A DNA stretch of 36,712 nt from Bryobacterales bacterium. Lineage in GTDB: Bacteria; Acidobacteriota; Terriglobia; Bryobacterales; Bryobacteraceae. This document shows, piece after piece, positions 16,964 to 20,094 of the stretch; within the stretch, counting starts at the first letter, position 1, and each line of letters starts with the position of its first letter. The stretch covers positions 1 through 36,712 of the forward strand of contig PMTR01000188.1 of assembly GCA_003167255.1 (NCBI GenBank), in the 5' to 3' direction. Below the pieces are notes generated by a model, which was not told the origin of the DNA, did not search any database, and worked only from the letters and a program-made list of their open reading frames with translations. The translations under genes and the position numbers were made by a program.

Positions 16964-17106
16964 AAGTAGCAAGCCAGTGTTGCAGATCAATAACAATTGG
17001 ATGAAGGTTGAGCGGCAGCGAACTGTTTCGCAACGCGCGGCTCCGATCAGAGCCGCGACCGTGAGGGAGCGGAGGGCCGGAATATCCATGCTAGGATCAA
17101 GCCAGA

Positions 17107-17493
17107 ATGGCCCTCATGGATCTGACCAAGCAACTGGCCCAGCAGGCACTGCTCTCGGCTACGCAGGAGCCGGCAGCGGCGGCCACGCAGGAGAATCCGG
17201 GCGCGGTCATGCTCGGGCAGATCGGCGCCATGCAGAAGGCCTTGAAGGATGACGAAGAGCTGGTGGTCTTCGTCCATTGCGGCGCGGAAAGGATCCGTGT
17301 GATGGAGATCTTCCTGCCGTCGCCGCAAGTAGCGGTGCTGAGCGGTGTGGATGCCAATCATACCCAGGCGCGCGTGATTTCGGCGGTGGAAGCGCTGCAA
17401 CTCGTCACCCGAACCGGCAAAGTGCAGCCCGGAGCCAAGGCCGTGCGGGTCAACCTGGTGATGCCGAAGGCAAAAGATTCCAGCAGGAAATGA
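17107..17493 (+). CDS. Hypothetical protein, 128 aa
   Basis: I do not recognise a named family. The N-terminal 35 residues are Ala/Gln/Glu-rich and probably flexible. Residues about 45-122 look like a compact alpha/beta domain ('EELVVFVHCGAERIRVMEIFLPS', 'VAVLSGVDANHTQARVISAVEALQLVTR', 'KAVRVNLVMPK'). No signal peptide or membrane segment is seen. TAGGAT (17092-17097) lies 9 nt before the ATG and could be either a -10 or a weak Shine-Dalgarno. ATG 17116 is an alternative start. Coding status is supported by the regular amino-acid pattern, but the last 44 bp overlap the 3' end of the convergent histidine phosphatase gene. Confidence 0.6.
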   Translation: MALMDLTKQLAQQALLSATQEPAAAATQENPGAVMLGQIGAMQKALKDDEELVVFVHCGAERIRVMEIFLPSPQVAVLSGVDANHTQARVISAVEALQLVTRTGKVQPGAKAVRVNLVMPKAKDSSRK

Positions 17494-18034
17494 CGCGCGT
17501 TTCCCTTTCGTAACCGAGCGTGCTCACCGAAGCCGTGCTCAACGCGAAGAGGCTTCCGCACCGCGGGTCAAGCTGCAGCCAGCACGCGGTCAGGATCCGC
17601 AGAATGTGGCCGTGGGCGAACAGCGCCGTATCGCCATCGGCAGCCACGGCCCGCGCCAGCACGGCTTCGGCGCGCACCGCCACCTCCTCGATGCTTTCGC
17701 CGTTCGGCACGCCATCGCGCCACAGCGACCAGCCCGGCCGTTCCTTCTGAATGTCGGGAGTAACGCGGCCTTCGTAGTCGCCGTAGTCCCATTCGCAGAG
17801 GTTGGAGTCGACGTGCGCGGCATCGCCGTAGCCGGCCAGGCGGCAAGTATCGCGCGCGCGTTCCATGGGACTGGTGAGCACCAGCGCGAAGGCGCGGCCC
17901 TGCAACCAGCGGCCAATGGCGGCGGCGTTGTCGCGTCCGGCGGCGGTGAGCGGAAGGTCGGTCCGCCCGGTGTGCGCGCCCGAGCGGCTCCATTCGGTTT
18001 CACCGTGGCGGATGAGCCAGATTCCTTGCGGCAT
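17450..18034 (-). CDS. Histidine phosphatase family protein (phosphoglycerate mutase-like)
   Basis: The 194-residue protein shows the branch-1 histidine phosphatase layout. It has the phospho-accepting RHGET (Arg9, His10), a second Arg in 'TSPMERARDTC', an acidic 'CEWDYGDYEG', and the late FAHGHILR with the second catalytic His. Enzymes of this group remove phosphate from sugars, nucleotides or cofactor precursors, and specificity cannot be read here. It is cytosolic, with no signal. ATG 18034 is preceded by TATAGT (18047-18042, minus strand) exactly 7 nt away, overlapping the -10 of the divergent hexosaminidase gene. The 3' end runs 44 bp into the convergent hypothetical gene. Confidence 0.85.
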   Translation of the reverse strand: MPQGIWLIRHGETEWSRSGAHTGRTDLPLTAAGRDNAAAIGRWLQGRAFALVLTSPMERARDTCRLAGYGDAAHVDSNLCEWDYGDYEGRVTPDIQKERPGWSLWRDGVPNGESIEEVAVRAEAVLARAVAADGDTALFAHGHILRILTACWLQLDPRCGSLFALSTASVSTLGYERETRVISCWNLLPSASPG

Positions 18035-18051
18035 CTTCTACACTATAGAGG
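18035..18051. promoter_or_regulatory. Overlapping divergent -10 boxes in a 17-bp intergenic spacer
   Basis: The spacer holds TACACT (18039-18044) for the plus strand and TATAGT (18047-18042) for the minus strand, overlapping by 3 bp. Each ends exactly 7 nt from its start codon (ATG 18052 and ATG 18034). There is no room for normal leaders. An AGAGG lies against the plus-strand ATG but is too close to be a usual ribosome binding site. Confidence 0.5.
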
Positions 18052-20094
18052 ATGATCCGCGCCCTGCTCCTGACGGCCCTTGCCGCTGTGGCCTCGGTGG
18101 CCCATGCGGCGACTCCCGCGCTGATGCCCATGCCGGCTAAGGTGGAGCTCTCCACCGGCAAGCTGGCCATTGACGGCACATTCGGCGTGACCGTCCTCGC
18201 CGGCAATCAGATCGAGATCACTGGACCCGGGATCTCGGTCCCCCGCCTCAACCGCGTGGTGGAGCAGTCCCTGGCCCGCGTGGCTCGCCAGACCGGAATT
18301 TTCCTGGCGCCGGGGACCAAAGCGGCGACCCTGCGGATCGAATGCTCACCCTGCTCCGTAACGACTCCCTCGCTGGAAGAGGACGAGTCCTATTATCTCG
18401 ACGTCTATCCCAGCGGCGCGCGTATTCAGGCCTCGACCGCCGATGGTGTGATCCACGGCCTGGAAACCTTTCTGCAGTTGATTCAGCCCGGCCCCGATGG
18501 TTTCCAGGTCCCCGCCGTACACATCGAGGACTGGCCGCGCTTTGCCTGGCGCGGCCTGATGATCGACGCTTCGCGCCACTTCATCCCGCTCGAAGTCATC
18601 AAGCGCAACCTGGACGCCATGGCCGCGGTTAAGTTGAACGTGTTCCACTGGCACCTCTCCGACGACCAGGGCTTCCGCGCGGAGAGCAGGCTTTTCCCCA
18701 AGCTGCAGCAACTCGGCTCGGACGGCCTTTTCTACACGCAGGCGCAGATGCGCGAAGTGGTGAGCTACGCGAGCGACCGCGGCATCCGCGTGGTTCCCGA
18801 GTTCGACATCCCCGGCCACACCCTGAGCTGGTTTCCCGGCTACCCGGAACTGGCGGCGGCCGCCGGGCCCTTCGAGATCGGCAGGCGGTTCGGCGTGTTC
18901 GACCCGGTGCTCGATCCCAGCCGCGAAGAGGTCTACACATTTCTCGATTCGTTCATCGGAGAAATGGCCGCGCTATTTCCGGACCCCTACTTCCACATCG
19001 GCGGCGACGAGGTGAATGGGAAAGCGTGGAAGCAATCGGAGGCGGTGCAGGCTTTCGCGAAGCAGCACGGGTTCAAAGACACGCTGGCCATCCAGACTTA
19101 CTTCAACCAGCGCATCCAGAAGATTCTCCAGAAATACGGGAAGACCATGATCGGGTGGGACGAGATCCTCGGCCCCGATCTTCCGCCCGACACGGTGGTG
19201 CAATCCTGGCGCGGCCAGGAATCGCTGGCGGAAGCCGCCACCAAGGGCTACCGGGGAATTCTTTCGGCGGGCTACTACCTGGATCACGGAAGGCCGGCCG
19301 CTTACCACTACGGCATCGATCCGCTGGGTGGACCGGCCGCGCAACTCACACCGGAGCAGGCGAAGCGCGTTCTGGGCGGCGAGGCCTGCATGTGGGCCGA
19401 GCTGGTGGATGCCGAGACCGTGGATTCGCGCGTCTGGCCGCGCGCCGCGGCCATCGCGGAACGCCTCTGGTCGCCGAGGGAAATCGCCGATTTGGATTCG
19501 ATGTACGCGCGCCTCGAAGCCGTGAGCCGCCTGCTGGAATTCGCCGGCGTGACGCACCGCGCCAGCTACCAGCCGATGCTCGACCGCCTGGCGGGTGACC
19601 GCAAGGCGGAGCCATTGCGCATCCTGGCGGACGCTTCCGAAGCTCGCGGTCTGGGCACCGGGCGCCGCGCGCACCAGACCGACACGCCACTCAACCGTTT
19701 CGTGGACGCAGCGCGCCTGGAGAGCGAAAGCGTGCGTGGCTTGGAACTGACCGCGCGCCGCGTCGCTGCCGCCAAGCCCCCCGACGCCGCTGACATGGCG
19801 TCGCTGCGCGCTCAATTCTCGCAGTGGGCCGCCAACGATGCGCGATTCCAGCCGCTGGCCGAGGACAACGCGCTGCTGGCGGAGGTGAAGCCGCTGTCGA
19901 AAGACCTTTCCGCTTTAGGCGTAGCCGGTTTGCGCATTCTGGACTCTCTCGAAACCAGCCAGCCGCTTCCCGACGACTGGATGGCCAACGAGACGCGCGA
20001 GATCGCCCGCCTGCAGCGCCCCAGCGCCGAAGTCTTGCTGGCGGCCGTGCGCCCGGTGAAGATTCTCTTCGACGAGCTGTCGCGGCGGAAATGA
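18052..20094 (+). CDS. Beta-N-acetylhexosaminidase, GH20 family
   Basis: The 680-residue protein is exported by a Sec signal (about 1-20, 'LTALAAVASVAHA'). An N-terminal GH20b domain (about 23-160) precedes the GH20 TIM barrel (about 163-490). Key elements are 'WRGLMIDASRHF', 'LNVFHWHLSDDQG', 'PEFDIPGH', and the catalytic pair in HIGGDE (Asp319 polariser, Glu320 acid), then 'GGEACMWAE'. The C-terminal 190 residues are helical. GH20 enzymes release terminal GlcNAc or GalNAc from chitin fragments, peptidoglycan or glycans using substrate-assisted catalysis. Together with the other exported hydrolases here it suggests scavenging of cell-wall sugars. A hairpin follows directly. Confidence 0.93.
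   Translation: MIRALLLTALAAVASVAHAATPALMPMPAKVELSTGKLAIDGTFGVTVLAGNQIEITGPGISVPRLNRVVEQSLARVARQTGIFLAPGTKAATLRIECSPCSVTTPSLEEDESYYLDVYPSGARIQASTADGVIHGLETFLQLIQPGPDGFQVPAVHIEDWPRFAWRGLMIDASRHFIPLEVIKRNLDAMAAVKLNVFHWHLSDDQGFRAESRLFPKLQQLGSDGLFYTQAQMREVVSYASDRGIRVVPEFDIPGHTLSWFPGYPELAAAAGPFEIGRRFGVFDPVLDPSREEVYTFLDSFIGEMAALFPDPYFHIGGDEVNGKAWKQSEAVQAFAKQHGFKDTLAIQTYFNQRIQKILQKYGKTMIGWDEILGPDLPPDTVVQSWRGQESLAEAATKGYRGILSAGYYLDHGRPAAYHYGIDPLGGPAAQLTPEQAKRVLGGEACMWAELVDAETVDSRVWPRAAAIAERLWSPREIADLDSMYARLEAVSRLLEFAGVTHRASYQPMLDRLAGDRKAEPLRILADASEARGLGTGRRAHQTDTPLNRFVDAARLESESVRGLELTARRVAAAKPPDAADMASLRAQFSQWAANDARFQPLAEDNALLAEVKPLSKDLSALGVAGLRILDSLETSQPLPDDWMANETREIARLQRPSAEVLLAAVRPVKILFDELSRRK

Follow-up and report, generated by a model that had tools for sequence, protein, structure and literature searches.

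A 17-bp spacer with overlapping -10-like hexamers as a candidate two-way leaderless promoter between divergent histidine phosphatase and GH20 genes

Symmetric bidirectional promoters are established (PMC12825309). According to the available text of that report, their start sites are most often 18 bp apart, with 10 and 23 bp also common and with small shifts. Five bidirectional promoters tested in E. coli had low basal activity, and strong activation in one direction could repress the other (PMC12825309). In all three of the Acidobacteria genomes covered by the available part of PMC3160421, TANNNT was found about 12 bp upstream of starts, with 9.7-19.4% leaderless genes. In addition, one divergent pair in M. 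tuberculosis is described in which both mRNAs are leaderless, and closely juxtaposed divergent promoters are said there to be common (Cortes 2013, PMC3898074). Both ingredients of the locus described here are already known, the bidirectional -10 promoter as well as the TA-led leaderless gene. The principle is known, and the tightness of the present spacer is unusual. The first-pass annotation had called two coding genes sharing one -10 region without leaders very compact; as a claim of novelty this is softened by the established symmetric promoters (PMC12825309) and the doubly leaderless pair (PMC3898074). Searches of the open-licence literature returned no pair whose entire intergenic region is one shared, doubly leaderless -10, and no paper on start-site mapping in Acidobacteria.

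The window, that is, the whole stretch of 36,712 nucleotides that was analysed, belongs to contig C64 in the 7.35-Mb genome G000, from a soil bacterium. Read from the sequence, CAT (18032-18034) is followed by CTTCTACACTATAGAGG (18035-18051) and ATG (18052-18054), and the start codons of a histidine phosphatase (HP) gene on the minus strand and a GH20 gene on the plus strand are 17 bp apart. The features of the locus are as follows.

17450-18034, minus strand: histidine phosphatase (HP, branch 1) gene; open reading frame with ATG at 18034-18032, Pfam PF00300
18052-20094, plus strand: GH20 beta-N-acetylhexosaminidase-type gene; open reading frame with ATG at 18052, Pfam PF00728/PF02838, N-terminus signal-peptide-like by eye
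18035-18051, no strand: shared 17-bp spacer, proposed bidirectional core promoter; 1 of 17 bases changed in genome G020
18039-18044, plus strand: -10-like TACACT for GH20, at -13 to -8; second-best of 582 site-strand positions in 17900-18190
18042-18047, minus strand: -10-like TATAGT for HP, at -13 to -8; best of the same 582 positions
18041-18046, plus strand: alternative register CACTAT (A at 18042, T at 18046), reciprocal to minus-strand TATAGT; 5.25 bits, fourth best
18040-18045, minus strand: alternative register TAGTGT, reciprocal to plus-strand TACACT; 6.32 bits, third best
18042-18048, plus strand: ACTATAG core at -10 of GH20; A[CG]TATAG at -10 to -12 also in 7 GH20 loci among the 28 best-scoring from other genera
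18051-18052, plus strand: predicted GH20 transcription start (G at -1 or A at +1 of the ATG), placed 7-8 nt past the last T of TACACT
18034-18035, minus strand: predicted HP transcription start (A at +1 of the ATG or G at -1), placed 7-8 nt past the last T of TATAGT

Plus-strand TACACT is followed by 7 nt (18045-18051) before the GH20 ATG, and minus-strand TATAGT, read from 18047 to 18042, by 7 nt (18041-18035) before the HP ATG; the two share 18042-18044, an overlap of 3 bp. The first-pass annotation had given the 17-bp spacer, both hexamers, the overlap and the 7-nt distances, all of which were exact on checking. The gene products matched GH20 (PF00728, E 2e-97) and His_Phos_1 (PF00300, E 6e-47), and residues 9-12 of HP are RHGE. 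An in-frame TAG stands at -6 to -4 before both ATGs, so that neither gene can start further upstream in frame. Mis-assignment of the start codons was ruled out by these stops, by the GH20 N-terminus MIRALLLTALAAVASVAHA, which is signal-peptide-like as judged by eye rather than by a signal-peptide program, and by the absence of alternatives for HP, which has no other ATG, GTG or TTG start within 60 nt. No Rfam match at the gathering score was obtained for window positions 17000-19000. At its 3' end, HP overlaps a convergent plus-strand open reading frame (17107-17493) by 44 bp (17450-17493), and the 128-residue product of that frame has no Pfam match at E 0.001.

The reading favoured here, with a probability of roughly 0.6, is that the 17 bp act as a bidirectional promoter of the -10-only kind, pseudo-symmetric in sequence, from which two mRNAs arise with no leader or almost none. 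Housekeeping-type RNA polymerase would load in either direction on one melted segment (TACACTATA / TATAGTGTA). Each RNA would begin at the A of its own ATG or one base before it, producing a leaderless transcript or a 1-nt leader, and both mRNAs would be translated without a Shine-Dalgarno (SD) sequence. Polymerase would occupy one orientation at a time; since the two orientations could not be occupied simultaneously, HP and GH20 would draw on one promoter. The start sites and the two-way firing are predictions from the spacer itself, and mutual exclusion is presumed by analogy with the E. coli work. The promoter tool, at its threshold, reported no -35/-10 pair anywhere in 17800-18300, spacer included, and in the absence of a -35 match activity would probably be modest.

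The A residues of the two start codons are 18 bp apart, and each is the -18T of the opposite promoter; the spacing by itself entails this, so it carries no evidential weight of its own. With a fixed distance of 7 nt between -10 and start, the starts would lie 16, not 18, bp apart; initiation at the A of both ATGs would give a start distance of 18. The A and T positions of TACACT and TATAGT are shifted by 2 bp from the reciprocal register seen in the layout that is commonest among published promoters. The reciprocal -11A/-7T pairing of the 18-bp layout holds for TACACT with TAGTGT and for CACTAT with TATAGT, but not for the best-scoring pair TACACT/TATAGT, and the reciprocal registers score lower.

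The genome's own start-proximal signal was derived from 2,254,383 bases, in which a simple codon-usage caller, blind to upstream signals and the source of all start codons used, gave 1,695 genes and 272 divergent pairs. A set of 703 well-scoring ATG starts was taken, each of which was divergent, had any co-directional neighbour 60 bp or more away, or had no neighbour on its piece. Among these, TANNNT starts at -15, -14, -13 and -12 in 23, 22, 21 and 28 cases (94 in all), over a background of about 6.75 per position at -40 to -29, and falls to 8 at -11. The corresponding counts at 310 operon-internal starts are 0, 1, 3 and 2 (6 in all). The rise is broad, setting in at about -28 and including 21 cases at -24, which suggests many near-start promoters with short leaders rather than none. 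A 12-column -10 matrix was obtained by expectation-maximisation upstream of the 703 starts, with HP and GH20 in the training set; seeding with TANNNT and, separately, with ACTATAG led to the same TANAAT-like matrix. Its two highest scores among the 582 site-strand positions of 17900-18190 are those of TATAGT on the minus strand (7.26 bits) and TACACT on the plus strand (7.01 bits), and scores as high as these occur at 0.05% and 0.07%, respectively, of 37,480 random genome sites.

Starts with TANNNT at -14 to -11 mostly have no SD (74 without, 2 with, against 444 and 183 for the remainder; Fisher 1e-8), a link that is partly mechanical because both signals occupy the same bases. Control TANNNT at -44 to -41 showed no link to SD (25/6 versus 493/179, P 0.53). 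The association of TANNNT with missing SD in this genome matches the leaderless signature reported for Acidobacteria in the available part of PMC3160421. At the locus, TANNNT near -12 stands at -13 before both HP and GH20, and neither gene has a normally spaced SD. GGAG, GAGG and AGGA are absent from the HP side of the spacer. The sole SD-like word before GH20 is GAGG at -4 to -1, abutting the ATG, with none in -16 to -4; it is too near the ATG for a usual SD, but it is not nothing. Overlapping -10 elements on the two strands are likewise present in the spacer as far as its letters go.

Within the genus, two genomes were compared, this one and G020. The same divergent HP/GH20 pair is found in G020, with a 17-bp spacer, both hexamers and a single change, at 18038. 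An HP locus with 93% identity lies on PLZX01000137.1. The two genomes differ at 80 of 333 fourfold sites in GH20 and at 20 of 107 in HP, and one change in 17 spacer bases is not significant alone (P 0.09). Among the matches listed for 150 genomes of the family, divergent HP-GH20 arrangements beyond this genome are those of G020 (17 bp), G030 (205 bp) and G095 (about 1.1 kb between matches). Conservation of the spacing and both hexamers in orthologous loci, which had been proposed as a check, is seen in G020, and the spacing is longer in G030 and G095. The longer spacers that the first-pass annotation had named as contrary evidence do occur, in these two other genera; yet in G030 GH20 has an ASTATAG core at -10 and HP has TANNNT at -16, so that near-start elements persist there despite the 205-bp spacer. 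An imperfect inverted stretch, cgcagagacgctgag ... ctcagcgcctc, can also be made out by eye in this spacer (L008:1290-1494) and is possibly a repeat element that lengthened it.

Each gene was also followed singly, in sets of 28 best-scoring loci, one per genome, with this genome and G020 excluded; these were the best 28 of 131 matching genomes for HP and of 103 for GH20, from 150 searched. Before HP, TANNNT begins at -13 in 8 loci and at -12 in 2 (10 of 28 together), and nowhere else in the upstream 40 bp does it occur more than twice at any position. These ten orthologues are spread over seven genera and are therefore not ten independent events. In one of the eight (L038), a TTG start is directly followed by ATG, and counting from the ATG would put TANNNT at -16. 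A GH20 match lies in the examined flanks of only two of the 28 HP loci (G030 and G095), neither of them among the motif-bearing ten. None of the HP homologues L146-L153, which come from another collection outside the 28, has TANNNT at -13 or -12. Two HP contigs labelled as different genera, L036 (G092) and L037 (G001), have identical 40-bp upstream sequences and near-equal lengths (14,517 and 14,500), and may represent a cross-binned contig.

For GH20, A[CG]TATAG lies at -10 to -12 in 7 of 28 loci and TANNNT at -13 or -12 in 4, with one locus having both. Either motif is present in 10 of 20 loci that are not operon-internal, a class that was set after the loci were viewed and takes in loci without any called upstream gene, versus none of 8 operon-internal loci (Fisher 0.025). 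The misses include L028, whose start is lost at a contig end, and L019, L022 and L027, whose starts are not ATG; L012, with GTG, is a hit. Six of the seven A[CG]TATAG cores elsewhere are not TANNNT at -13, and the motif-bearing loci L007 and L011 carry an SD word too. In G076, the GH20 orthologue faces a GDSL-hydrolase gene across 35 bp with the palindrome CCACTATACTGG (L030:3487-3521). Judged from these upstream sequences, both genes tend to have a -10-like element immediately next to the ATG; the two elements appear to coincide in this genus. A plausible history is that both genes first had promoters tight against their own ATGs, and that in this genus the two promoters were merged in a single spacer, with HP using the opposite strand of the symmetric ACTATAG core of GH20. 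Overall, the shared two-way leaderless promoter put forward in the first-pass annotation is favoured by hexamers lying where the near-start -10 elements of the genome sit, by the lack of a normally spaced SD, by retention in G020 and by start-proximal elements at orthologues apart from the partner gene, and is weakened by the longer spacers of G030 and G095.

These data bear on other explanations. The spacer could serve one gene only, the other depending on a promoter within the adjacent gene or on weak spill-over of the -10 symmetry; the gene served could be HP, given that TATAGT is the better hexamer, or GH20, given that its core is conserved elsewhere. A symmetric -10 can yield a reverse, often non-coding RNA (PMC10268837, available part), and relatives of GH20 retain the symmetric ACTATAG core where no HP gene lies just behind it. 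Such a one-way promoter is nonetheless unlikely, though it keeps some weight, because both hexamers outrank all other sites in 17900-18190, neither ATG has a normally spaced SD, and start-proximal elements are kept in relatives for both genes.

It is decidedly unlikely that the promoters lie inside the opposite coding sequences, with leaders overlapping in antisense and the TA hexamers incidental. The best -10 matches of 17900-18190 are in the spacer and not in the genes, a normally spaced SD is missing before either ATG, as noted, and the spacer is kept in G020. What speaks for such crossed leaders is that no -35/-10 pair was detected at the spacer or elsewhere in 17800-18300, and that matrix scoring reached only about 140 bp into each gene, leaving room for promoters further in.

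A very improbable alternative is that CTATAG, a perfect palindrome, is the site of a regulator of GH20 and lies at the ATG by happenstance. The fixed place of A[CG]TATAG in 7 of 28 GH20 loci of other genera would suit an operator; a short core against the ATG probably suits a -10 better than the usual operator, and the HP orthologues have other TANNNT words at the same offset. In addition, A[CG]TATAG failed as a common pre-start word in this genome: NA[CG]TATAG occurs near just 7 gene starts in 2.25 Mb, and at two of these (GH20 and the minus-strand gene of the C5 pair described below) it begins at -11, the base preceding the core being taken as its first.

Compact divergent pairs were also considered as a class, with offset windows and a 12-30 bp class that were both picked after the data of this genome were seen. 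Scored with the genome's matrix over 2.25 Mb, the best plus and best minus sites both fall at -18 to -11 in 4 of the 10 pairs with spacers of 12-30 bp (HP/GH20 included) versus 3 of the 218 whose spacers reach 100 bp or more (Fisher 6e-5), and in 3 of 9 compact pairs when HP/GH20 is omitted (P 8e-4). Similarly, plain TANNNT at -17 to -11 on both sides is found in 5 of 10 compact pairs, where the shuffle mean is 0.38 and none of 5,000 shuffles reaches 5, and in 2 of the 232 pairs separated by 80 bp or more; without HP/GH20 the count is 4 of 9 (P 1e-5). The further compact spacers with TANNNT on both sides measure 21-27 bp:

C5:103869-103889 (L090:3869-3889)
C18:11369-11391 (L080)
C21:15996-16021 (L104)
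C49:238488-238514 (L176:18488-18514)

Their neighbours include TonB-dependent receptor-like, PfkB kinase / methyltransferase and metallo-beta-lactamase-fold genes. All four were located in G020, one of them with only 237 of 423 bases matched, and the differences there are 1 of 21 (C5), 0 of 23 (C18), 0 of 26 (C21) and 0 of 27 (C49). Pooled over the five compact spacers, all of them motif-bearing and short, 2 of 114 bases differ versus 40 of 463 other intergenic bases at the same loci (Fisher 0.008); without HP/GH20 the figure is 1 of 97 (P 0.005). The C5 spacer is kept in G020, but the ATG of its plus-strand gene is TTG and the sequence beyond cannot be aligned, so that C5 is not conserved as a pair. 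Placing starts 7 nt past the last T predicts distances between them of 16 for HP/GH20, 16 for C5, 16 for C18 (using the best plus site within the spacer, not the best of the region), 23 for C21 and 23 for C49.

Outside this genome, 31 divergent pairs in the loci of other genomes (297,255 bases, with L040 and L145 representing the same genome's locus) include a single 12-30 bp spacer (L146), which is motif-free. Recurrence of the exact layout CATNNNNTANANTNTANNNNATG across the family was tried and rejected: it occurs in 14 of 237 genomes, this one and G020 counted, and is not enriched over controls, namely the pattern backwards (7 of 237), GTA...TAC ends with the same core (7 of 237) and CAT...ATG ends with the backward core (18 of 237), the two backward counts (7 and 18) being a hand tally from tables. 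Pattern matches at G158:C34:8125-8147, G022:C29:62398-62420 and G091:C439:1830-1852, beside putative gene starts, have cores (TATAGTATA and TATAGTGTA) resembling that of the HP/GH20 spacer. That the genus has a recurrent class of minimal (17-27 bp) intergenic regions, in which a single symmetric -10 yields two leaderless or near-leaderless mRNAs and promoter, start sites and both start codons are inseparable, is offered only tentatively. Besides HP/GH20, the C5, C21 and C49 spacers are candidates for it, and C18 is a candidate by TANNNT only.

TANNNT at -14 to -11 appears on both sides in 2.4% of 200,000 shuffles of the 17-bp spacer, so that the spacer alone is only mildly unusual. That two functionless AT-rich hexamers fell together by chance, as this figure and the unenriched exact pattern across the family would allow, is barely credible beside the matrix ranking, the conservation in G020 and the recurring near-start elements at orthologues of both genes.

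If correct, the two-way leaderless promoter illustrates how far the size of a divergent promoter between coding genes can be reduced: leaderless starts would let a symmetric -10 promoter shrink the intergenic region to the melted segment. Two unrelated enzymes would be tied to one polymerase site. The locus would also offer an uncomplicated system for studying polymerase competition, with no leaders and no space between the genes for flanking regulator sites.

Compared with the symmetric -10 promoters described in the available texts of PMC12825309 and, for Salmonella, PMC10268837, the locus is similar in having a short -10 segment that can be read from either strand, divergent starts that are predicted to lie about 16-18 bp apart (7-25 bp for that class), no need of a -35, and a T at -18 opposite the A of the other start. 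It differs in that both the HP and GH20 RNAs are predicted to be leaderless mRNAs, so that the whole intergenic region would consist of the -10 segment and its discriminators; in addition, its best-scoring hexamers are 2 bp off the reciprocal register, and its starts are predicted from sequence. With the leaderless TANNNT genes of PMC3160421, in which Acidobacteria are among the groups covered, of M. smegmatis (PMC6448022) and of M. tuberculosis (PMC10937400), it shares TANNNT at -13 and the lack of a normally spaced SD; those genes are described singly in the available parts of these sources, whereas two such elements overlap here. In M. tuberculosis, lysG and lysE are divergent with promoters that overlap by RNA-seq, and a second lysE promoter gives a leaderless mRNA (PMC5648196); as far as the available text goes, that pair differs in its 108-bp intergenic region, its site for a LysR-type regulator and its single leaderless transcript. 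The M. tuberculosis pair prpD / Rv1129c (Cortes 2013, PMC3898074), from a different phylum and described in the available part of that report with neither a spacer length nor a shared -10, is alike in arrangement: the two genes are divergent neighbours, and both of their mRNAs were mapped as leaderless, as is predicted for HP and GH20.
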